Source: Dermatophagoides farinae
Taxonomy: Eukaryota > Arthropoda > Arachnida > Sarcoptiformes > Pyroglyphidae
Reading direction: 5' to 3'
DNA length: 64,000 nucleotides
Assembly (NCBI RefSeq): GCF_024713945.1
Contig: NC_134680.1
Coordinates: 439,001-503,000 of the forward strand
The translations under genes and the position numbers were made by a program. The notes beneath the pieces are model-generated. The model had not been told where the DNA came from. It searched no databases and worked only from the letters and a program-made list of their open reading frames with translations. This document shows, piece after piece, positions 36,094 through 51,981 of the stretch. Position 1 is the stretch's first letter; every line of letters starts with the position of its first letter.

Positions 36094-39000
36094 ATGATCT
36101 TACGACTATTCATTTGTGCCATTTTGCAGGTAAGAATCGTAAATTTTTTTTGTTTTGATGATAATACTACTACCTTTGCAATGGAAATGCAATTTTCGCC
36201 ATTTTCATTCATCACAATGAATCAATTGATGAATAAATAATGGCCAAATTGATTGATTGATTGATTCGATTTGATTTGATTTGAAAAAAACAATACATTC
36301 ATTGCGGTCATCTTTCAATGAAAAAAAACAAAACAAAACAAAAAGTTTCAGTCTCTCTCTTTCTCCGTGCGTGTTTGTTTGTTTGTTGATTGTTTGGTCA
36401 AACTGTAGAGATTTTTTTTTTTTTTGTTTTTCTTGACCAACAGACCATAGTCAACATATGAGACAATTTTTTTCGTTGCCGGCAAATTTTAGACAGCTCA
36501 AAAAGGTAGCTGTTTTTCGTTGTAAAAAGAAAATCTAACTGAATGACAAATTAATTTGTTACATTGTTCATGAATGGTATATTTATATTGAATTGAATTT
36601 TCAAATTATCATCATTTCAATTTTTTTTCATTTTTTCATTTTGTACATACTTCCTGTGTGTGTGTGTGTTTTTTTTCAATGAAAACAAACAAACAAAAAT
36701 GAAAATGAAACAAAATCACCATCTTCCTATTGTCAAATTTTTTTTCATTTTGTTGAAAATTTTGTGCAAAATCAAAATGAAAAAAAATGATTTTTCAATT
36801 TTTTTTTTGGCTCCAAAATTGAATGAGATTTAAATTATTATTACGACGACGACGACTACGACGATGATGATGATGATGATGAGGTCAATCATCACCATTG
36901 CATGATCTGAACTGATTTTTTTTTGTGTGTGTGTGTTTTGTTTTCGTCATTTTTTTTCTTTATTCAATCCAAATCTCATTATCGATATGGCCGATCATCA
37001 TCATCGTCATCATATCGTTTATGTAATGACAATAATTAAATTATTTTTCTTCATTTTGAAATTTAAATTTTCAATCATTTCAATCGCCAAACACACACGT
37101 ACACATACACACACACACACACACACACAGTCCAATCCGTTTTACAATGACCTGTTGATTGAGAACAGAAAAAAAAGAGTGAGTGAGTGAGTGAGAGAGA
37201 GAAAATTGTTATCAAAATTTAATTTATTCATCATCATCATCATCATCAACATCGAGTATACTTGAAGCCATTTTGTTTGCTTTTATGTGATCAATACGGG
37301 ATTTTTTTCTATTTATTTATCGTCATCTTTTTCTTCTTTATTTTGGTTGGGTCAAAAAATATTTCTGTTGACCCAGTTTTGTTTTGTTTTTTTTTCATGT
37401 ACCTGTGTGTGTGTCTGGGTCATTGGTTGAATTCCTGTTTCGACATCAATTCTAATAGGTTTTTCGGTAAATTTCATTTTCTTGATGTTCTGGTTCGATA
37501 ACAGAATTTGATTGATTGATCAATATGACAGATTGTCTATGCGTGTTGATGATGATGATGATGATGACAATTAAATCATTGGAACGCAATAATCTCATTT
37601 GATTACCAAAAATTCATGTAGTTTTTTTTCTGTAGGCAATTTCGGTTTCCAAATGAAAAAAAAATCATCATTTTTTGAGATTTCAATTTTTTTTTCTTTC
37701 CACTCAAATACTTGATCATCATCATCATGATGATTCAGATCCAAATCTGATGATCTAATGACGAATCTTTTCTTTTTTTTCTGCAAAGAAAAAAATGAGG
37801 AAAAATAACTTCAAGATGAAAAAGTAAAAGTGAAAAGATAATTCCATCATGTTAATCTCGTTCGACTTTAAATTTTCAATTTCACTCTTTTCACCCGTTT
37901 GGATGATCAGAAATAGCTTGGTGAAATTGAAAAAAATCGGGATTTTTTTTTGCACACACACACACACACGCCGAGTCATTCATAAAATTATCGAATCCAA
38001 CCACCACAACAACAACAAGATATCCGTTTTTTGAAATAGATTAATGCCATGTACTGGAAAAGTTGAAAAATTTTCTCTGTTTCTAATAATAAATGGACTT
38101 TTTTTCATCTTCTTTTTTCCATCAATATAGTCGACCAGTTTGATGTGTGTTTTTTTTCACTTAAAATGACCAATTTTGATGATGTCGTATCGTGGTTATT
38201 TTGTGATTTACACACACCCAACACCCACATGATGGATATCCAATAATTGATTGTTGACAGTCATAGATGATGATGATTATTATGAATCAAACGAAAAAAA
38301 ATGACATCGAAAATAATCAATTCCACCTTGTGTGTGGTTTTTTGTCCATTTTTTTGATTTCTTCCTGATTTTTTTTCTTTCAATGATTTGTAAAATTGTA
38401 AAAACACACAGATGTTCTGATGATGATGATGGATTAAATTCAATTCGATTTTATTTCATTGCTTTTTTTTCCCCATTAACAAATCAAAACTCGTTGTCGA
38501 TGTGTCATTGATGTGGTTGTTGTTTTTCTTGATTTTCAGAAACAAAAAGAAAAAAATTCTTGTCATCAATCATCGTACGAATCGATCATAATTTTTTCAA
38601 ATTTTTATTTTTTATCTTGATTTTTTTTATTGTCATCATCTTGTCTTTTTGTTACCGATCAATCAATCAATCAATCATGACTGATTGAAAATTTTTTTTT
38701 CTCCTGAATTACTAAATAATAAAAAAGATGTGAAATCCACAAACAAGATAATGATGATGATTTGTAATTTTGTTTCAGGTTTTAGTAATCAAAAAAAAAA
38801 AAAAATTTTTTTTGAAAGTGAATTGTCATTGAATTTCAATGTCCACTGTCCACATTTGTTTGTTGCTGATGGCCATTTTTTTGTTTTGTTTTCATTCATC
38901 AATTGGATGTCCAAAGAATGAAATTGATTCTGTTTGTTTGTCATTGTATTTCATTGAATTTAAATTTAAATTTTTTTTCGTCAACATGATCAATCAAATT

Positions 39001-42000
39001 AATAATAATCAAATTGTCACCTTGTCATTGTTTTTGATCAAAAACGAAAATTTTTGACAAATTTCCATTATGATGATCGATTTGGTGGCTTACGTGTGTA
39101 TGTTAATAATAAACAGGACAATTATGATGATGATGATGAAATAATCGGATTGACCATCCATCCATCCATCCATTTTGTTTGTTTGTTTCAAAGCTGATTA
39201 ATTTCCTAATCAGAAATTTGAGATTGATAAATTATTTTGTTTTGTTTTTCTTTGTGGTGGTGGTGGTGGTGGTGATGAAATTTGAGAATCTGACCAAAAC
39301 ATCTTTCTTTGTTGCTGAGTTTCAAACACACAGTGATTCGTCAAAAAAATTTTTTTTTTCGTTTGAAAACAAAAATGATCGATTATATTGATGATGTGTA
39401 AAAAAAAGACACTCACAGCAGTAGTTGGGCAATGAAAAAAAATTTTTTTTTTGTTTCATTTTGTTATTGATTGATCTAGATTTTCTCATGCTTTTGTTGT
39501 ACATTTGAATATTCATCTTGTGTGTGTGTGTGTGTGTGTGTGTGCGTTTTCCTTGTTTATCGTGTGCACCAATGTTCCAGAAACAAATGTTTCAATTATA
39601 AATTCAATCAGAAAAAAAAATTTTTCCCTTTCCTTTTTAAACAAAAGAAAATTCTCAGCTGCTGTTTATTATATGTACGATTATGATATTAACACACACA
39701 CACACACGCACACGCAGACTTGAATCGTGGCCATTTTTTTTATCATTTTGAAGGTCAAAGATATCAGCATGTAGTGGGAGGAGGTGGAGAATATGTTTTT
39801 TTTATTGAATCATTAATCATTCCTTTTCCATTTTCACTGTTTTTTTTTTTTGATGAAGAAGATGGAGATGGATTTTGGATTTCTTCATTTTCCGCTTAAT
39901 TTTTGTTATTTTGAAATTTTTTTCTGATTCGTTCATGACTAGAATTTTTTTTGTTTGAAATAAATAAAAACAACAAAATTAAAGAGAAAAATTTTAATTT
40001 TTTTTTCAAAAAAATGACCTTTATTCATTGCGAATTTTATTCATAATTTGATTTTCATCTTGATGATCATGATGATGATTCAAAAATCAATTTATGATGT
40101 TATTGGTCATTATCATTGATCATTGATTGATTGATTCATCTCTGAATGATGATGATCATAATAATAAATGTCATGATCATCATCATTCAGAGATGATGAT
40201 CATGAGCAAACGGAAACAAGTTGATTCGAGTGTATTTAGGTATTTTGTGCCATGGCAACAACAAGTACTGTTGTACTGTTTCAACTGTTTTTAACAAATT
40301 AAAACGGATGCCCAAAGGGCAGTGTTTATATCAGTCTAATCGATTATGAGTAATTTAGTAGGGATAGGCTTTTTTTTGTTTGATTTCCTGTATTGATCCA
40401 GGATCTATGTATCCATACAAACAAAACAAATACTTGGCAAATACTTAGTAATGTGGTAACTAATCACTGTAAATGACTAAAGATCCATGATCATTAAAAG
40501 GTCGAAATAAATTGGTTCAAACAAACAAAATGGGCAAATTCAAAGTTTGAATTTCAAACTCACAAACAATGTATATTTTTCGAGAAAAGAAATGAAAAGA
40601 AAATTGCTTATTATTTATCATTTGTAAAAGCTAATTTTTCAACAAAAAAAAAATTTTTAAATTTCAAATTAGCAAATTAGAAAAATCGAATCAAATCAAA
40701 CTTGTTTGTCGTGTTAAAAAAAAAACTTAAGAAAAAAAATTGGGGGGAAAACCCAAGGTCTGTCTGTGTGTGTGTGTGTTATCACAATTTAGATGTCAGT
40801 CTGCATGTGTGTATGTTTTTTTTTTATTGTTTTATTGCACGTCATATATGATGATGCTCGCCATATCGTAAGTCGTCTTGTTGTTGTTGTTGTTGTTGTA
40901 TGGGCCATCGCTTGGCAACAACAACAACAACAACATGGACGCCCAATTTTCAATTCAATTTTTTTTTAATGATCTTAGAAAGAAAAAAAATCGTAATCAA
41001 TAAACACGATATGTGTGTGTTGTGTGTCTGTTTCAATTTTGTACAATGAGATTACGACGAATTTCACCTTGAAACTCATTCTCATTTCAATGGAATCTTA
41101 TTTTTCTTATCTTTTAAGAACAATCAATAGAAAAGTGAAAAGAAATTAATGATGAACATGAATAATTTTTATTTTTTTGTTCGTTTTGCTGAAGACGACC
41201 AATTTTTTTTTCTTCGTTTTTCTTTTCACTGATAATGAGGATGAGGATCATGATTATTATTCGATTGTTATCAAACGATAATATCGATAATGTTGTCCAT
41301 CACATATTACACTAAATTATGGCCGACACTTTTTTTTTTTTGATTGTAAAAAAATGGTCGGCTGGCCCTCTTATTACGAAGGTTTTCTTTCTTTTTGATG
41401 ATGATGATGATGATGATTGATGAGATCATTTTCGAGCATCTCAATCGAAATGACATGGTTTCATTTTTTGTTTTGTTTTGTTTCTTTTTATCAGAAAATC
41501 GATTTTTTTTTCATCATCTTTGTGTGTGTGACACAATCACACAAGTCAGGAAGAGGATTTCATATTTTTATAAAGTTAAATTGTATCAATTTTGATGATC
41601 AATTGGTGGCTGGTTGGTTGGTTTGTTTGTTTGATTGATTGATAATTGGACACAATTATATATATATAGTGATTAATCGATTGATCAATCGATCAATTGA
41701 CATTGGTCAATGTTATCGTGAGAGGGCAGTAGGAGGATGTGTTCCTGATTGTGTGTGAAAGTTTTTTTTTTTGCTCTATTTCGACATGGACACCGGTAAT
41801 GTTGTCGAAACAAAAAACGACGACGACGACGATAATCGATGTTTTTTTTTCACTCTTCAACGCCTCCAAGTTTTTTTTTATTTTAATTTGATCCGATTTT
41901 CAACTATTTTTTTTGTTGGTCGAAATAGCCATCAATTTTTTGTTTTTCATCAGAGTATTCAATGAGTTAATCAGATAGAAAAGAAAGAAAGAAGAAGTTT

Positions 42001-45000
42001 GTTCATTTCACAATCACCATTGATATGATCACATCACTATATAGTGAGATGATGAAAAATCTGATTTTTTTTTATTTGTTTTTTATTTATCTCATTCATC
42101 GTTGTTTTGTTGTTGTTGTTGTTGTGCAGGTCAATTTCAAATCTTGTCGTCATCGTCATCGTCATCATCATCAACGTTAATCGTCATTTCGTCTGTATGA
42201 GTGATGGTCAATGAAGAAAAAATTTTTGAATTTCAAGTGAAATCACAGTTGTCTGTGTGCATGTGTCCATGAACAAAAATGAAAGTCGACGACGACGACG
42301 ACTAGATTTGTGATTTGAAAGAGTGAATTAATTATTCGACATTTAAGATTGAAGAAAAAACGATTTTTTTTCTGATTTTGGATCATACAGAAAATCAGCA
42401 TCCATTTTGTTTTTGTTTATCTATCTGAATGTAAATGAAATTTAAATCCAGAAAAAATGGAGTGAATGAAAAGTATCCAAAAAAAAAAAAATTTGGATTA
42501 TCATCATCTGGATCATCATAATTCAAGAATCCATTCATTCATGACATGATGATGTCAAACATCATCATAAATTGTGTGTGTGTATTTGATTGATTTTAAT
42601 GAAATGGAATGGAATCATTTTTATTGCCAGAAAGGTGTAAATCAATTGATGAACCAACAATCAACAATCATCATCATCATCCATCGATGGCCATCATTCA
42701 AATGGCATGCATGAATGGATAAATGAAATTTAAATCAATCAAATGTGAAAGAGAAAGTTGAAATTTAGAAATTTAGAAAACTGGATGATTTTGAATTGGT
42801 TTTATAATGGAATGTTGTTAATCAATTAAGGTTAAATCAATATCAATCAACAGGTGCCGTTCATTTGTGTTATTTTTAGTTTATCAATTATCGTTGAATT
42901 TTGAATATGGATCAACATGAAAAAAATTAAAAAACACAGCAGGTAACAACTCAAACACGCAAGCTGTGGCAAAAAAAGCGGAGCAGAAAAAAAACCTTGA
43001 GAATTAAGAATTCATGAAAATGGAAAATGATCAAAAAGGGAAAAAAATCAAGTTTTTTTTTTGATTTTCACATGAAATTGCCTTTGGCGTTGTTGTTGTT
43101 GATGATGATGATGATGAATTTGTTGTTTTCCGTTTTGTTTTTTCATTTTGCTCTCGTTATTTTTTTTTGTTTTTTGTTTTCGTTTGTTTCGTCCACCTTG
43201 GAACCTATCGGTCAAATCTTGTTGTTGTTGTTGTTGTTGCTGTTGTCGATGGAACAATGATTGATCTGATGTGATGTGAATTTGAAAATCTGGATTTTCG
43301 GTATCAATCCAATCGAATCGATCGATTTGTTGCCTGTGCAATTTTATCTTTTATCCGTTGATTGCAAATCTAATTTATTCATTCATTCTGTTTTTGTTTT
43401 TTCGTTTGTTCCAACATTGAATTTTTTTTCCTTTTTTTGCTCTCGACATGAATCGATTGCCTTCAAGCATCTTCCGAACGAAATACGTTTTAGAGTCCAA
43501 GTCGAGGACAAATAATGTTTTTTTCTCCTTTTTCTTATATCCACATTAATCTGTCATTTTTTTTTTGTTATCTTTCATTAGTTTTGCATAATTGGCCTGA
43601 CGTTTGGTGTTGTACCACAGATTACACGTCTTAATGTACAATGTGATCGTAGCGGTATGAAAGTGATGGTCGAATTCGATAATACATTCAATGGTATCAT
43701 ATTTTCAAAAGGACATTTTAGTGATCCAAATTGCCGGTAAGTTTTTCATTCATCCATTCATTCATTTAATTACTGTGGTGTGGGTGTGTCTGGTTGTTTA
43801 TTTTGGTTTGCTTGTTGCATGCTTTTCTTTTCTATTCATTTCCTGGTGACTAAAAAAAAAAATTGCATGCACTCCCCTATTGACTGCCATCTATCGAATG
43901 TTAAACTTACTAATCATGACTAAAAAATTTTTTTTTGTTTTGTTTGTTGACTTTCACTATCCATAAACGAAAATATGAAAATTTTCCAAGAATTCTGGAA
44001 TGAAAAAAAATATATTCTGATTCTTATGTGGAATGTGTTAAAATGCAAGATTTTTTTTTTATTTCGTTTGTTTGTTCAATTACTAATATATTACAGTAAT
44101 ACAGAATGCCTAGTAACCTGAATGATGCAAAATCAAAAAAAAAACCAGGTAGGAGATTGTTGTTGTCATTGCCATTGAATGAATGTATCACATACACACA
44201 AGCACAAAAACACCGATATACATAGATTCTAAAACTAAAATTTACTAAACAAAACAAAAAAAAACCAATTCTAAATCAATCAAAAAGAAATAAATAAAAT
44301 CTAAAAATAACCTAAAACAAAAACTATTACACCAAACTAAAAAAAAAAATCTCAATCAATTGATGATGATGTTGATGTTGATTTCTATCTTTTTTCTTCT
44401 TCTTCTTCTTCTTCTCTCAAAACAAAAACGGACACGCCTCATCAATTGGAAAACGTTTTTATACTCCAAAATAAAAAAAAATCACAATGAAAAATGAAAA
44501 TTTAAATTTTAAAACTAAAAAAAAAAATGAAAAAATAAAAGTTATGTGAATGCTGCTGGTGGCCAAAATATTTATGAATTTTCCGTATCATCATCATCAT
44601 GTGGTACAATGGCAAATGAATTGATAGCGACAACAAAAGGTGGTAACGATCAAATACCACAAGGTTTTAAAAATGTTATCATCATACAGAATGATCCTGA
44701 TTATCAAGAAGTATGGGATTCAGCACGAAGATTAAGTTGTGATTGGGTTACTCGGCTAGAAAAGACTGTAACATTTGCTCCGTTTGGTGTCGATATGCTT
44801 GGTGTAAAAGAATTACGTTTCCCCGGTGATACTGTTGATTGTTGGATGGACATACAACGTGGTCATGGCCCATTTGCACCAACAATTGGTGGTGTTGTGC
44901 CGATCGGTGAAAAACTTACCGTTGTGATTTATGTACGTGATTCAGATAAATCATTCGATGTTCATGTGAAAGATTGTTATGCATATGATACACCTGATTA

Positions 45001-47346
45001 TCGTAATCCAAATGCACATGCCATCAAATTGACCGATGAAAATGGTTGTCCATTGAAAGAAAAATTGGTGCAAGGTTTTTTCCGTACACGTGATGTACGT
45101 AATTCTGGCGCTACGATCATCGCCTATGGTATTATAAATGCATTTAAATTTCCGGAAAAAATGGATGTATTCCTGGCATGTAATGTTGAAGTTTGTAAAG
45201 GTGGCTGTATGGAAAATGTTTGCCAACCAATTGTTGATGTTGCTGGTCAAGATTCCGTTGCTTCCGACGATATGGCTTCTTCTGATGATGGTGGTACCGA
45301 ACTTGCAACTGTTGATACAACTAGTACTGATGAAGCTACTACTAGTACAGAATCACCAGCTGAGGATGGTGATGATGGTGACAGTGCAACAGAAGAAGAA
45401 GAGAAAAAAGAGGAAACCCCTTCAGATGGTGGTGATGAAGAAGAAACTACTCCGGAGGATACAGACAAAGGTGGTGATGATGAGGAGGAAGAAGAAATCG
45501 GTGGTGGTGATAGTGAAAATGGAAAAGATGTTGATGAAGAAAGTAATGGTAATGATGGTGGTGGTGGTGGTGATGATGACGAAGAAAAACCCGATTCTGA
45601 ATCATCAACCGGTGATGAAGACGATGAAAAATCTGAAGATTCAGTTTCAAGTGGTGAATCAGATTCCGATACCAATGGTGGTAATGGTGGTGATGAAGAA
45701 TCAACCACTTCTGATGATAGTGAAGAGAAAAAAGAGGAAACTACTCCCGATAGTGATGAGGAAAGTACTGTTACTACTGGTGATGATGAAGATGAAGAAA
45801 AAAGCGAAGATAGTAATGGTACTGATGCTGGTGACAGTGAAGAATCTACTGGCGGTGATGGTGGTGGTGATGAAGAAGAAGAAAAAACCACTACCGATGA
45901 TGAAGAAACTAAAGCTGCTGATGATGATGCTGAAGAACAAATTGTAAGTGAAGAAAAATCTGAAGATGTAACTGGCGATGATGGAGAAGAAACCACAAAT
46001 GGTGACACTTCATTATCATCAACAGCAGTTGCCGGTAAAAAAGGACGTAATAATGAAGATGAACAAATAAAAGAAGGTGATGAAGCTGAAATCACTAATG
46101 GTGATAGTGATGACGATGAAACGGAAGAAGAAAGAAAAAAACGACGAATTTCGGCATCATTGAAATTGAAAGCTAAAAGTAAGTTTAAAATGAAATCAAG
46201 TCTTTTATGATTGAAAACTAATTTTTTTTCTTCGTTCAATTCTTAGAATCATCAAAAGTATTGAAATCAGCTAAAAAATCTGGAAAAGTCAAAAAATTAG
46301 CTAAATCAGTAGCTTCTAAACCATCTTCGACTGGTAAAAAACCAAAAGTAACAGCAACTGCTTCTACTTCATCGAAATTAGTGCGAAAACCTCAAAAATC
46401 TTTAGCCAAAAAACCATTGGCTGCATTACGAAAACAATCAACAACAACAACAGCAACGTCATCAGCGAAAAAAATTGTCAAGAAAAAATCAACAACAACC
46501 ACTACCACCACAAATGGTAAAAAGCCAACAGCAGCTAAATTGGTTAAAAAATCGGCTTCAAAATCTTCTAGATCATCTTCATCGGCTCGATTAGTACGAA
46601 AATCCAATAAAACCAAAGGTAAAGTTTCACGACCTATTGTCAATAAAAAAGCCGGTCAATTAAAAGCCCGTAAAGCATCATTGCCTGCCAATCGAACTGC
46701 TAAAATTCGTCGTCCATCGTCATCGTCATCTGCTAAATTGATTCGTCCAATGCGACAAATTAGACAAGCATCATCACCAACGGCTATTCCAATTGAATTA
46801 CGACGATTGTCGGCTACATTACAGCATCCAAATGCCGGTATCGTACAAGAAGGTCGTCATGTTCGTACACGAAGATCTGTATTGATAAATGATACGTCCA
46901 TTATGAATGCTACGTTTGCACCAATGATACATTCAATACAGATTATATCACCAATCGAAGATTTTGATGAAAAAGAATTGAATGCATGGGAAAAACTGAT
47001 GCAACTTGAAGGTAGTGTTGAAGAAGAAGTAGTCGATAATAATAATAATAATAATGATGATGATGATGAAATTCATCGTATACCATCATTCACAATTGCA
47101 ACAGCATCCATTACCGGTCAACATCGACAAACATCGTTGGCCGAATTGAATGGCCATCATTCATATTGTTTTTCACGTATACATTTGATTACAGCATCTT
47201 TGTTGCTATCATCGGTTACGGTCATATTATCAATGATTCTTTATATGATTTGTTCATATATCCATCAACGGCAACAATTGGTCAATGATAAAATTGGAAC
47301 AACAACAACAACGAAGGAAAAAATTTCCTATTTTTCATATGCCTAA
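36094..47346 (+). CDS. Zona-pellucida domain transmembrane protein, charge-block type
   Basis: Four exons join in phase: 36094-36129, 43582-43736, 44542-46178 and 46247-47346 (976 codons including the stop). Exon 1 encodes the start of a signal peptide (MILRLFICAILQ), continued by FCIIGLTFGVV. The ZP domain spans about residues 27-290: LNVQCDR and SKGHFSDPNC form the N-half, and DMLGV, VDCWMDIQRGHGP, VKDCYAYD and ENGCPL are typical of arthropod apical-matrix ZP proteins. Residues about 300-600 are almost all Asp, Glu, Gly, Ser and Thr. About 611-800 is Lys/Ser/Thr-rich. A furin-like site (RTRR, about 816-819) precedes one transmembrane helix (about 923-948) and a short tail. Such proteins are cleaved at the apical membrane and polymerise in cuticle or lumen matrix. 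The acceptor of exon 3 (AAAAG) has a weak pyrimidine tract. The next ZP module at 48342 may share exons 1-2. Confidence 0.88.
40136..40196. repeat. Perfect 24-bp hairpin with 13-nt loop
   Basis: Arms 40136-40159 and 40173-40196 are exact reverse complements built on a CTCTGAATGATGATGATCAT core. The size and loop are compatible with a precursor-type RNA hairpin, but simple-repeat expansion is an equally good explanation. It lies in the first ZP intron. Confidence 0.8.
40879..40935. repeat. Opposed (TTG)n/(CAA)n hairpin
   Basis: A (TTG)7 tract (arm 40879-40898) and a (CAA)n tract (arm 40916-40935) form a perfect 20-bp stem around a 17-nt non-repetitive loop. Confidence 0.8.
43886..43895 (-). 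promoter_or_regulatory. GATAGATGGC word, copy 2
   Basis: Exact 10-mer on the minus strand, in the second intron of the ZP gene, 150 nt after exon 2. It is one of five copies. Confidence 0.3.
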
Positions 47347-47764
47347 AAAACGGACACAAAAAATTCTTAAAAATTATCACTAAAATTTGACAAAAAAAAA
47401 ATTTTTTTTTTAACCAAATCAATATAATTCACACCTGATAGATTTTTTTAGAACACAGAAAATTTTTCATTTTTTTTTTCATCTGCAAAAAAAAATTTGC
47501 TTGTTCGCTGCGCTCGAAAAGCATTAGTCATTTTAGTTTTTTAGGTCTTTTTGTTGTTGTTGTTGATGTTGTTGCTATTTCGACAGTAGTGGCCAAAATG
47601 ATGAATTTGCGTTTAGTTTTTTTGCTTCTCTCTAAAAAAAAAAATTGGTGATGAACATGATCGATATTTACACATACAGACAGAAAAATTTTTCTATTTC
47701 TACTCACTCAGTTAATTGATGATGATGATATAATTTTTTTTTCGTAAAATTTAAAAAAAAATTG

Positions 47765-47770
47765 AATAAA
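47765..47770 (+). terminator. Possible polyadenylation signal after first ZP module
   Basis: The first AATAAA that I see after the stop at 47346 is about 420 nt downstream and before the second ZP module. It would allow the first module to end its own transcript. Confidence 0.3.
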
Positions 47771-48341
47771 ATTTTTTTACAAAAAAAAATTCAAAAATTT
47801 CTAAAATTTTTCATTTCTAAAATTCAAATTTATCATTCTCTTTCTCTCTCTCTTACTCAGAATTAAGAAAATGTCAAAGAATCTACTACTAACCCAAAAT
47901 TTTTTTTTCTCATTCTTTCCAAATCACCCAATGATAACTCATTAACCTTACCTTACCCTTATTCATACAAAATCCCAATTCTCCTTTATTGAAAATTTTC
48001 CAAACAAAACAAAACAAAAAAAAACGTAATGAAACTGGAAAAAATCCTAACTTTTTTTTCAAATGGAATCAATTTTTTTCTCTTTGTAATCTAATCCCAA
48101 ATCGGATAATGGTAACCCCTTGGCTATTGTTGTTGTTTTGTATATGTTTATGTGTTATTTGTACGACCCCCTTCATATCAAATCATCTGTTTCTTCATTT
48201 TTTTTCGCACTTAAATTCAAAAAATTGTAAAAAAACAATTCATCACCTTTGTTGTAAAACGCACAAACACGCATTTCTTTCGGTTTCTTGCACGCACATT
48301 TTTTTTCTCATCATGATGAAAAAAAAAATATATATCAATAG

Positions 48342-51222
48342 CTACATACAACCAAATACGAGTACACAATCATTGGAATTTCAAATACCAGTGGATCAAT
48401 GTGGAACGAATACATTGGATATTGAATCAGAAAATGGTGAACCAGCAAAACGTGGATTCGAAAATATTGTCGTGTTTCAAAATGATCCAATCTATCAAGA
48501 ACAATGGGATCATGCACGTATGATGGTATGCCGTTATTCGATGGATGATGATTTTGATTCAAAAGATAAACGTGTCATCTTTAAGCCGATTATTATCGAT
48601 ATGTTGGACGTTGTAAGCGTAAGTATAATTGATTGATAAGTAATATTTTTTGATTGTATCGATTGATTGATTTTGTTTTTTATTTGGAAAAATTAATATT
48701 AAACTATTCACTATTGACCGTAGATACCGATCGAAGATGAAGATGGTACACAATCACGTGTAGATTGTTGGATGGAAATATCGAAAGGACGTTTCCCACA
48801 TACAATGGATATTGAAGGTGCAGTAAAAGTTGGTTCACCATTAACATTGGCCATTTTTGTTAAAGATCCACGTAAACGTACCGATATTCGTGTTAAAGAT
48901 TGTTATGGTATGGAATTTGATTTTGTTTTAATGAATTCAACTCATTCATACACACGTTTATAGCATATGATGATCCAAAAGTTGCTGAAAGTAATGGACC
49001 AGCATTATTGCAATTGACAGATTTTGATGGCTGTCCAAATCGACCAAAATTGATTGAAGTATGGAAACGAACACTGGACACTGGTGATACGGGTGCAACG
49101 GTCATTGCATTTACAACGGTTACGGTATGTTTGGAATTTTTTTTTCATATCGGATTTTTATTATTTATTTTTGCATATCCACTAGGCATTTAAATTTCCG
49201 GATCGTCCCGATCTACAATTGACATGTAATATTGAATTATGTCGTGAAAAATGTTCATCACGTTGTTCATCGGAAATGCCTGAGCCAACAAGTGTTGGTG
49301 CATGGACTAAAACCACTGTGGACGATGGTTCCACCAATACGGCTACTACAACTGATACTAAAGATGAAAATGGCGGTACTGATGCTGGTGAAACCGATGA
49401 AGATAAAGATACTGATACTGCTACCGCAGAAGAAGGTGATGCTGAAGATGGTGAAGAAGAAAAAACAACGGATGAAAAAGAAGGTGGCGATGAAGGTGAA
49501 GAGACAACCGCTGATGAAGAAGAATCATCATCAGATAATGGTGATGAAGAATCTAAAACAGAAGATGATGGTGATGATGAAGAAAAAGAAACCACCGCAG
49601 ATGAAGGTGGTGACGATGAATCATCAAAAATGACTGCTTCAGAAGAAACACCAGCTGAAGAAGAAACATCGGAAAAAGATGGTGATGAAGAAGAAGAATC
49701 AACAGCCGAAGAAGGTGGTGAAGAAGCTGAACCGGCTGCAGAAGAAGATGAAAAAGAAGAAGCAAGTGAAGAAATGGCAGCTGATGATGAGGAAAATGAA
49801 CAAACTGGTACTGATGAAGAAACAGAAACTACGGCTGAAGATGAAACACCGGCTAAAGAAGAAACGGATAGTTCCGGTGAACCAGCATCGACGGAAGAAG
49901 AAACCACAGCCAATGATGATGAAACAGCTGATGTAGGTGAAGATGAGAATAAATCTGAACAAGAAATAGAACCAACAGGTACAGCCGGTAGTGAAGATGG
50001 TGAAGAAGAACAACAGGCTTCTGGTGAAGATGAAAGTGAAAATGAAACTACTAGTGATGATGAAGAACAAGATGAAACGGAAAATGGTACTGAAGATGAA
50101 GAAGAGGAAGATGAAAAGAAAAAAGCTCGATTACAAGCAGCACCAACAACAACAACAACAGTAGCAAGGAAAAAGATTTCCAATGTTGTAACAGCATCGA
50201 AATCAACAAATAAATCCAAATCAAAATCAAAAACCAAACCAACAACCACATCGACGACAACTACCACCACTTCAACAACAACAACAACAACAACAGCTAA
50301 ACCAATTAGTAAAATACGTAAATCATCGAAAAAACCAAAAGAAGCATCACAACGAAAATCGTCGACACAAAAATCATCAAACAATGCACAACGTCGTGCA
50401 CAAATAATGGATACATCGGAAAATTCTGTGGATGAAATACGATCATCGTCGACTAAATTACAACAACAACAACAATCACCAAAAACGGCTGCATCCGGAA
50501 ACAAAAAGATAAGTAAAGCCACAAGATTAAAGGATATACTACCATCGCAACCGCAACAACATCCACAATCAATGATGATGGCCAATCATATGTCCACAAC
50601 AACTTTAAGACCATTGAAAGAATTGGCAAATTCTAGCAACACCAGCAACCAGAACAAAAATAAATTATCGAAAATAACGGCCGCTGCAAATGCAGCCAAA
50701 AAATTGAAATCTAAACGACAAAAATCCAAAACCACTACTACTACTACTACTACGACAACCACTTCAACTACGACACTTCCGCCAAAACCAATGAAAAAAA
50801 TGTCTAAAATTAAATCATCGAATCAAAAAGCAAGTGTGGATACAAAATCCGGTAATCTTAAACGTAATACACGTCATAATTCTGCTGAACAAATTGAAAT
50901 GAATGATAATAATCAAAATCAATCATCAATGATGATGAATGGATCTCCACGGCAAACATCATCATTAATAGCAAACAGGCGACAATCACCATATTATTAT
51001 GGTATTGTTGATGATTCACCATATGAAATGGATGCATTACGGTCATTCTATGCATATTCAAATTTTCAACCACAACGTATACGAAGAACACGTCGTACAA
51101 TACGTTCAGTTGATCCAATAAAATGGTCTCATTCAAATGGTCATAATAATAATAATAATCAAAAAGGTGCCACAATATCATTGGGTGCTCGTGTCATTTC
51201 CGGTTTGGAAATAACCATGTGA
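48342..51222 (+). CDS. Second ZP-domain module lacking its own 5' exons
   Basis: Four exons join in phase: 48342-48618, 48724-48907, 48964-49124 and 49186-51222. The first starts with one base that completes a split codon, then YIQPNTS, exactly parallel in phase and position to exon 3 of the upstream gene (YVNAAGG). Shared ZP features are DQCGT, IVVFQNDPIYQ, DMLDVVS, VDCWMEIS, VKDCYAYD, FDGCPN and TGATVIAF. The module then has an acidic Glu/Asp/Ser/Thr stretch (about 260 residues) and a basic Lys/Thr/Ser stretch (about 320), with a multi-basic RIRRTRRTIRS near the end. There is no transmembrane helix before the stop. No signal peptide or first ZP exon exists in 47347-48341. Joining to exons 36094-36129 and 43582-43736 gives exactly 950 codons, so alternative splicing is likely. 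A 5'-truncated duplicate is the alternative. Confidence 0.82.
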
Positions 51223-51244: not shown

Positions 51245-51981
51245 ACTTACTTTTGCCATTTCCCGAACAAAATTCAGATGATTTTATGATGACACGTACA
51301 CGCACACATACACATAGACATCTAGAAATCTAGATTTCTTTTTTGCTTAGTCTTCAAAACACAAACACTAACACGGACTTTTTTCGAGCTAAACATTCCA
51401 TTCACCAAATTTTGGAACATACACACATAGGGGCTCGAATAAAAAACCAAAACCAACATCGTTGCTTTAGTTAGTATGTAGAGAATCTCGTAAATTATTA
51501 TCGATATGATGATAGTTTTTTCAATGTTTAAATAGTTTAGATGTGTAGGACGCGTTAGAATTTTTGATTTGATCGATATTCGATAAATAGAATGATGATA
51601 GAATTTTTTTTTGTTTCTTTTCACAAAACATTTGGCGATAAACATTCGAATTGTATTTTTCTTTCGATATATCGATTGTATTGTCACATATTTTTTTTTT
51701 ATTCGACCATCATCAACAAACAAACCTGTAATAACTACCACTGTTGACACCACAGATGTAATTTTTTTTCGCTGTAATTTTTGTTTTTTTGGAATCTTTT
51801 ATTTTTGTTGATTTTTTATCAATGTTTTTGATTGTTTTTTTTTTGAATTCTTTCACATTTGGTTGGAATTTTGTTTGTTTGTTTTTTTTGTTTTTGAATT
51901 TCATTTATATTATAATGATAATAAAATAAAAACGTTATTTAAAAACGATAATCTTTTGTAAAAAAAAAATTCGATTCCATC

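Follow-up and report, generated by a model that had tools for sequence, protein, structure and literature searches.

The 64-kb stretch of DNA analysed here (the window) probably holds a single ZP locus with two alternative 3′ modules, joined at a point that splits the disulfide-bonded ZP-N domain, so that one product would be membrane-anchored and the other probably secreted. The first-pass annotation had suggested such a locus, and this reading is supported as the best fit to the sequence evidence. In the model that we propose, exons 1 and 2 of one transcription unit would supply the signal peptide, followed by the first half of ZP-N and its cysteines C1 and C2. Splicing from the donor at 43736 to 44542 would yield a ZP protein of 975 aa with a membrane anchor at its C-terminus, whereas splicing from the same donor to 48342, with exons 3 and 4 of gene 1 skipped, would yield a 949-aa (or 947-aa) ZP protein without one, which may be released. 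C3 and C4 would come from whichever 3′ module is joined, and the same disulfide-bonded ZP-N fold would therefore be completed from the common half, presuming that the cysteines pair as they do in other ZP-N domains. Both splices would take place, with the choice between them regulated. The exons and candidate poly(A) signals are as follows.

36094 to 36129, plus strand: exon 1 (12 codons), carrying the start codon and the signal peptide's first half, ending in phase 0
43582 to 43736, plus strand: exon 2, remainder of the signal peptide, then the first half of ZP-N including C1 and C2
44542 to 46178, plus strand: gene 1 exon 3, remainder of the ZP domain in a single exon, then an acidic tail; open frame
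46247 to 47346, plus strand: gene 1 exon 4, with a basic tail and a furin-like site (RTRR), then a transmembrane segment at the C-terminus and the stop codon
47765 to 47770, plus strand: AATAAA, a candidate for the poly(A) signal used by the gene 1 form
48342 to 48618, plus strand: module 2 exon A, carrying C3 and C4 in the second half of ZP-N; alternative donor after 48612
48724 to 48907, plus strand: module 2 exon B, in which ZP-C starts
48964 to 49124, plus strand: module 2 exon C, ZP-C continued
49186 to 51222, plus strand: module 2 exon D, last part of ZP-C, a tail that is first acidic and then basic, an RIRR site and the stop codon
51239 to 51244, plus strand: AATAAA; four candidate poly(A) signals lie past module 2, of which this is the first

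Exon 1 translates as MILRLFICAILQ and ends at the donor CAG/GTAAGA. C1 and C2 of exon 2 are residues 33 and 63, and the donor after 43736 (CCG/GTAAGT, phase 2) would be common to both forms in the proposed model. The frame of exon 3 (44543-46210) matches PF00100 at 3e-12. The 975-aa product of gene 1 carries its membrane anchor at the C-terminus (KD 2.31 at residue 923); its ZP-C matches PF00100 above the cut-off (8.6e-13) and CUT_N also passes (31.5 bits), while ZP-N, at 23.3 bits, falls slightly below the cut-off of 24.7.

The second, diverged ZP module (48342-51222) consists of four exons, lacks a first ZP exon of its own and has three additional introns where module 1 is uninterrupted. Taken alone, its only domain above cut-off is ZP-C (PF00100, 6.4e-9), and its first exon gives a sub-threshold ZP-N match of 15.6 bits that starts at profile position 37. 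By eye, exon D contains an RTRR site besides RIRR, and further candidate poly(A) signals follow at 51438, 51920 and 51925. No C-terminal membrane anchor was found in module 2, its best hydropathy value (KD 1.56) lying inside the ZP domain, nor did inspection by eye around the end of exon D reveal a GTRAG donor that could lead to a missing anchor exon. Neither the additional introns nor the missing anchor had been mentioned in the first-pass annotation. A DNA search of the assembly returned no second copy of the module.

The lack of both a first exon and an anchor is what would be expected if module 2 were a non-functional, 5′-truncated tandem duplicate. We regard this as very unlikely, given that all four exons are open and separated by GT-AG introns despite only 40% identity to module 1 over the ZP region, that the nine cysteines correspond in order to those of gene 1 and that the PF00100 match is retained. 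The codon-position pattern of module 2 also resembles that of module 1, with lineage-specific changes of 18/82, 19/114 and 17/52 by codon position in module 2 and 18/82, 17/112 and 12/47 in module 1.

The acceptor at 48342 is in phase 2 and lies at the same ZP position as that of gene 1 exon 3, as had been claimed in the first-pass annotation, and here phase and homology boundary agree: the alignment of module 2 with other ZP proteins shows homology from the Y of YIQPNTS onward, one base past the AG. The donors of gene 1 are in phases 0, 2 and 1, and only the one at 43736 yields the frame of module 2 (1/3). Splicing into module 2 from the donor of exon 3 (46178) was rejected, as it does not give that frame. 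The further claim that exon 2 can join either acceptor in phase, with products of 975 or 949 aa, was confirmed; the 949-aa chimera of exons 1 and 2 with module 2 uses the donor at 48618, and the adjacent donor at 48612 gives 947 aa. Each product has 11 mature cysteines, which match one-to-one in the same order. The chimera matches CUT_N over its full length (41.2 bits, positions 4-103 of 103) and ZP-N over positions 1-80 of 101 (28.6 bits), both above cut-off.

What counts against these domain matches as evidence is that the first exon of any ZP gene might serve equally well to complete that of module 2. We also compared intron 2 with the interval 47347-48341 between gene 1 and module 2; a lone A-rich match of 28 nt was obtained, with 4 of 300 shuffles as good, and it was not taken as homology.

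If module 2 were instead joined to upstream exons of its own, these would have escaped recognition because they are too diverged, split or located outside the 64 kb, and the locus would comprise tandem or interleaved genes. A strongly diverged exon can indeed escape an HMM search, the acceptor at 48340 needs merely some phase-2 donor, and in another tandem ZP pair of the genome (C3:1649072 and C3:1659010) each gene has its own first exon. Even so, a profile HMM built from the first-exon segments of seven genes of the same genome identified exon 2 as the only first ZP exon in the window, on either strand, with 88.7 bits at 43582; the next match, at 11.7 bits, was a 12-residue piece on the other strand. 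When left out in turn, the seven first exons scored 25.1-80.7 bits, including 63.8 bits for one whose C2 sits on another exon. The interval 47347-48341 contains no GTRAG donor, and among the CUT_N matches listed genome-wide (at least 19, with some loci opened) we saw none that resembled an unpartnered first exon. We consider separate upstream exons to be quite unlikely. The earlier claim about this interval stood with respect to the first ZP exon, which the HMM did not find there, but its statement that no signal peptide is present was not quite right in view of the following start codon.

48109 to 48341, plus strand: in-frame ATG with a signal-like sequence, open into module 2; rejected as the module 2 start

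Directly after the ATG comes a signal-like run of strong hydrophobicity, MVTPWLLLLFCICLCVICT; the ATG belongs to a stop-free run of 134 codons (47938-48341) that reads in frame into module 2. One could therefore hypothesize that module 2 is a separate gene with an unspliced first exon leading from this ATG straight into YIQPNTS, and encoding a secreted ZP protein without the first half of ZP-N. The whole run stays open in only 7 of 5000 dinucleotide shuffles, and the part from the ATG onward in 190 of 5000. Intron 1 has 49 open ATGs, 16 of them signal-like, and none of these 16 reaches the score of 3.54 obtained for the hydrophobic run. By eye, the ATG context has A at −3 and G at +4. A low codon score would not exclude a signal exon here, since the signal exon 1 of gene 1 itself scores merely 0.001 per codon.

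The composition of the stretch nevertheless looks non-coding. Its 233 nt are free of AG, whereas none of 18,565 overlapping coding windows of equal length lacks this dinucleotide in a 21.8-kb reference made up of 14 long open stretches presumed to be coding, where the longest AG-free run is 199 nt. It contains four homopolymers of at least 7, against 15 in 21,813 coding nt, and its codon log-odds of −0.32 per codon falls within the range of the open stretches of intron 1 (−0.45 to 0.05), compared with 0.31 for module 2 exon A and 0.45 for gene 1 exon 3. A product that started here would have C3 and C4 without partners, and the reading gives no reason for an AG-free zone that ends exactly at the homology boundary. 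We rejected the unspliced start for its AG content, homopolymers and codon log-odds, and regard this explanation as unlikely. On these sequence-based controls, both the unspliced start and the pseudogene do worse than a model in which the two modules share their first exons.

What counts against the favoured model of shared first exons is that it does not account for the open run of 134 codons, whose presence by chance is improbable.

The sequences in front of the two acceptors provide additional information about how module 2 may be spliced.

47880 to 48339, plus strand: AG exclusion zone of 460 nt, ending at the module 2 acceptor AG (48340-48341)
47887 to 47893, plus strand: TACTAAC branch-point consensus, branch A at 47892, 448 nt from the AG
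44288 to 44539, plus strand: AG-free zone of 252 nt before gene 1 exon 3, with a pyrimidine tract far upstream (about 44381-44418, by eye)

Of 10,007 AG gaps examined over 328 kb of strand sequence, none is longer than the 460-nt zone, which stops exactly at the acceptor defined by homology. TACTAAC, which occurs three times on the plus strand and once on the minus strand of the window, with one of the four at this zone, is followed by a pyrimidine tract at 47900-47920 (T9CTCATTCTTTCC). Gaps that reach 252 nt number 26 of 10,007, and no YTAAY branch consensus was found in the zone before exon 3. Among 15 acceptors placed by eye, these two have the longest AG-free zones, and four of the other 13 have zones above 100 nt (113, 114, 124 and 162). 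Several observations count against this evidence: long AG-free zones occur without a known acceptor as well, such as 43053-43465 within this gene (413 nt) and one of 423 nt in L026; AG is generally depleted, with 205 observed in intron 1 against 367.5 expected, and four YTAAY motifs, the number in the module 2 zone, are present in 13.8% of 460-nt windows. The module 2 acceptor is likely to be a distant-branch-point splice site, and in our model both acceptors would be sites of this type. The possibility that an RNA loop-out brings the branch point to the AG was considered and rejected, as the fold is not unusual (z = 0.37, with 65 of 100 shuffles folding as well); the minimum-energy structure of the zone pairs the T9 tract with an A10 tract.

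Module 2 may have originated when the 3′ portion of an ancestral gene was duplicated; the pairing of the two modules in the tree is weakly supported (split 80/98, no starred branch). A broader hypothesis, which we advance tentatively and with slightly more doubt than belief, is that a distant-branch-point splicing switch joins the common ZP-N half to one of two diverged halves, thereby toggling between an anchored and a free cuticle-type protein, and that a duplicate of the 3′ half of the gene, which lacked its own promoter, start codon and signal peptide, survived because splicing could attach it to the first exons of its parent. If true, a tandem duplicate confined to the 3′ part of its gene can persist for long, since alternative splicing lends it a promoter, a signal peptide and half a domain. 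The analysis of AG-free zones, developed on human exons, may also help to detect regulated acceptors when applied to compact genomes, without recourse to RNA data.

In vertebrates, such an architecture accompanies alternative exons. As at the module 2 acceptor, the zones of the human distant-branch-point exons in PMC1431707 open with a branch consensus and a pyrimidine tract, with distances to the AG of up to 400 nt, compared with 448 nt for the branch point predicted here, and human exons with zones of at least 100 nt include 68 cassette exons among 235 where 47 are expected. The zone of gene 1 exon 3 differs from that set in having no consensus branch motif. Exons 4a and 4b of OGDH are mutually exclusive, and a long AG-free zone is tied to their alternative splicing (PMC7969005); here, unlike in the human cases, the alternative units would be whole multi-exon 3′ modules.

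The arrangement of signal peptide, ZP-N, ZP-C and conserved cysteines is that of the arthropod cuticle ZP-domain proteins, such as Drosophila Trynity and Dusky-like (CUT_N PF25057, ZP-N PF23344, Zona_pellucida PF00100), in which a furin-like RxRR site is a family feature. The C-terminal anchor is present in gene 1 and, by eye, in five paralogue tails (L020, L022, L023, L025 and L029), but not in module 2. Since ZP proteins without an anchor exist, its absence is no bar to membership in the family. What sets the locus apart is that two ZP remainders appear to use one signal peptide and half ZP-N. No intron was seen at the ZP point of the exon 2/3 junction in seven other ZP genes (A, B, C, L025, L028, L029 and C10), although gene C has introns a few residues to either side. 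A pattern scan of GTDB and IMG/VR contigs gave no relatives, solved structures gave no match up to E = 1, and no literature on ZP modules with common 5′ exons was found, as judged by titles and abstract openings.

The Drosophila genes lola and mod(mdg4) combine a common 5′ part with alternative sets of 3′ exons, much like the arrangement proposed here. In those genes the complete BTB domain is common, whereas here the junction would fall inside one disulfide-bonded domain, between the cysteine pairs of ZP-N, and the common half would therefore have to fit two partners.

The arrangement of the ZP-domain gene (gene 1) in the window (G000:C4:439001-503000) and of the diverged ZP module that follows it (module 2) suggests a single locus, in which common 5' exons serve two alternative 3' modules. 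The exons of both are as follows.

Exons of gene 1 (n = 4) and module 2
36094-36129, + strand, gene 1 exon 1
43582-43736, + strand, gene 1 exon 2
44542-46178, + strand, gene 1 exon 3 (start of module 1)
46247-47346, + strand, gene 1 exon 4
48342-48618 (or -48612), + strand, module 2 first exon
48724-48907, + strand, module 2 second exon
48964-49124, + strand, module 2 third exon
49186-51222, + strand, module 2 fourth exon

The first-pass annotation had proposed that exon 2 can join either module, giving 975 or 949 aa, and both frames were recovered (the chimera with module 2 being 947 aa long with the donor at 48612). Gene 1 encodes a signal peptide followed by the ZP domain and a tail that turns from acidic to basic; an RTRR site and, at the C-terminus, a hydrophobic anchor (KD mean of 2.31 at residue 923, 19-residue window) complete the product. 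A KD scan of module 2 found no hydrophobic segment downstream of the ZP domain, the best window (1.56, residue 142) lying within that domain. An anchor-like segment was recognized by eye at the C-terminus of the five paralogues read (L020, L022, L023, L025 and L029). Both products have 11 mature cysteines, pairable in order. The remaining part of the ZP domain is a single exon in module 1 (44542-45226) and contains three introns in module 2 (48342-49266); paralogue L025 is also intron-bearing, with its first intron at a different position, and introns were thus lost or gained after the split.

The acceptor of module 2 had been placed at the same ZP point and phase as that of gene 1 exon 3, with which the homology start and the donor phases agree. 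The exon-2 junction falls after the second base of the codon following the second ZP-N cysteine (NC|R), and in the alignment the homology of module 2 begins one base past its AG (48340-48341), at the residue next to the split codon. The donor phases of gene 1 are 0, 2 and 1, and the frame of module 2 is given by the exon-2 donor only. No intron at that point was seen in seven other ZP genes of the genome (A, B, C, L025, L028, L029 and the C10 gene), gene C having introns a few residues to either side.

That no cysteine-containing first ZP exon lies between 47347 and 48341 was borne out by an HMM built from the first-exon segments of seven genes in this 62.4 Mb genome (22 contigs) and run against all open stretches of at least 15 codons on both strands of the window. 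Exon 2 was the top match at 88.7 bits, the runner-up reaching 11.7 bits, and earlier HMM runs were consistent with exon 2 as the only first ZP exon. Left out in turn, the seven genes scored 71.0, 80.7, 62.6, 63.8, 51.6, 47.2 and 25.1 bits, so that the search should have picked up even a divergent first exon, provided that it resembled the types known from this genome. Genome-wide there were at least 19 matches to CUT_N and at least 11 to PF00100, and among those listed, part of whose loci were opened, none looked like an unpartnered first exon.

Two parts of the ZP gene L025 (G000:C3:6782001-6792000), an exon piece of 39 residues and the complete tail, recur with identical protein sequence in L026 (G000:C3:6695001-6705000) and L027 (G000:C3:6712001-6722000), on the opposite strand, 70-85 kb off and about 15 kb apart. 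This would be either a recent inverted duplication containing a long intron or an error of the assembly. CUT_N matches at G000:C8:4335880-4336146 (-) and 4327916-4328182 (+), inverted, about 8 kb apart and each in a 130-aa open frame, are possibly an inverted ZP gene pair.

Module 2 alone exceeds the cut-off for ZP-C only (6.4e-9), and the ZP-N match of its first exon stays below threshold, at 15.6 bits, and starts at profile position 37 of 101. In the chimera, both CUT_N (41.2 bits, 4-103 of 103) and ZP-N (28.6 bits, 1-80 of 101) are above cut-off; the corresponding values for gene 1 in its own form are 31.5 bits (4-68) and 23.3 bits (1-60), the latter slightly below cut-off. A comparable score might be reached with any first exon of a ZP gene, so that domain completion speaks for need and compatibility, not for the identity of the partner.

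Contrary to the first-pass annotation, the interval 47347-48341 does contain a signal-like ATG, at 48109, in frame with module 2; if coding, the unspliced stretch would give module 2 its own start. The frame ahead of module 2 (47938-48341, +) is open for 134 codons, as were only 7 of 5,000 dinucleotide-keeping shuffles, which preserve the absence of AG as well. However, the stretch looks non-coding: in a set of 14 long open stretches presumed to be coding, to which gene 1 and module 2 belong, none of the 18,565 overlapping 233-nt windows lacked AG, and homopolymers of at least 7 are about 25 times denser from the ATG on than in that set (4 in 233 nt versus 15 in 21,813 nt). The codon log-odds is -0.32 per codon, yet gene 1 exon 1 also scores only 0.001. 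Also against the rival, 16 of the 49 open ATGs in intron 1 are likewise signal-like. We therefore rejected the unspliced start on AG content, homopolymers and codon log-odds and consider it improbable, although this leaves the open frame without an explanation.

Nor do we favor the reading that module 2 is a decayed copy, because it is open over four exons despite 40% identity to module 1 in the aligned ZP region, and because lineage-specific changes at codon positions 1, 2 and 3 are similar in module 2 (18/82, 19/114, 17/52) and module 1 (18/82, 17/112, 12/47). A longer loop after KDCYAYD is common to both modules, and of the genomic matches to module 2 outside itself that cover most of the query, module 1 ranks first (42% versus 36, 35 and 35%). 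The pairing is weakly supported, and not contradicted, by the tree (split 80/98).

Under the favored model of alternative 3' modules, exon 2 has two acceptors, and both follow long AG-free zones. Upstream of module 2, 460 nt lack AG (47880-48339), the longest such run among 1,984 gaps on the plus strand of the window and also among the 10,007 gaps counted when ten additional 10-kb stretches are included (328 kb of strand sequence altogether). Composition alone predicts 12.6 AGs there, or about 7 once the shortage of AG in intron 1 is taken into account; none is observed, and there are 9 GAs. The zone starts with CTACTACTAACCC, then T9CTCATTCTTTCC; in the whole window TACTAAC has four copies, three of them on the plus strand and one on the minus. 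Three CTAAY and four YTAAY motifs lie in the zone, numbers reached by 2.5% and 13.8% of 460-nt windows, respectively. The zone of gene 1 exon 3 spans 252 nt, a length reached by 26 of the 10,007 gaps. Fifteen acceptors could be placed by eye, with open frames and homology as guides; their zones measure 43, 44, 63, 63, 64, 71, 73, 81, 97, 113, 114, 124, 162, 252 and 460 nt, and the two available to the exon-2 donor have the two longest, a ranking with a chance of 1 in 105. Three points count against reading the zones as marks of distant branch points: AG is depleted in introns generally (205 observed versus 367.5 expected in intron 1), the zone of gene 1 exon 3 contains no YTAAY, and a 413-nt AG-free run (43053-43465, +) ends where no acceptor is known, at AG 43466, 116 nt upstream of exon 2. 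Next to that run lies a short homopolymer-poor stretch containing ATG 43448 (MNRLPSSIFRTKYVLESKSR..., as read by eye). Either a further acceptor or a small exon ahead of exon 2 possibly lies in the region 43053-43515 (+).

We propose that transcription would start upstream of 36094, and that exon 2 would have two alternative partners. When it is joined to 44542, the transcript would probably be polyadenylated after AATAAA 47765; when it is joined to 48342, polyadenylation would follow module 2, where the candidate signals are as follows.

Candidate AATAAA signals after module 2
51239, + strand
51438, + strand
51920, + strand
51925, + strand

Both acceptors would then be used and the choice between them regulated, and the anchor-less product of module 2 may be released. 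Membership in the ZP family points to a putative role in the cuticle; one account describes fly ZP proteins as shaping the apical matrix (PMC6303098). Alternative 3' ends, ZP proteins and distant branch points are each familiar from earlier work. The combination of these elements with a cut inside one ZP-N domain was not found in the open-access literature searched, a body outside which most subscription journals lie. Long AG-free zones in human exons are reported to mark distant branch points and to be associated with alternative splicing (PMC1431707), and for OGDH a mutually exclusive choice is described as enforced by distant branch points (PMC7969005).
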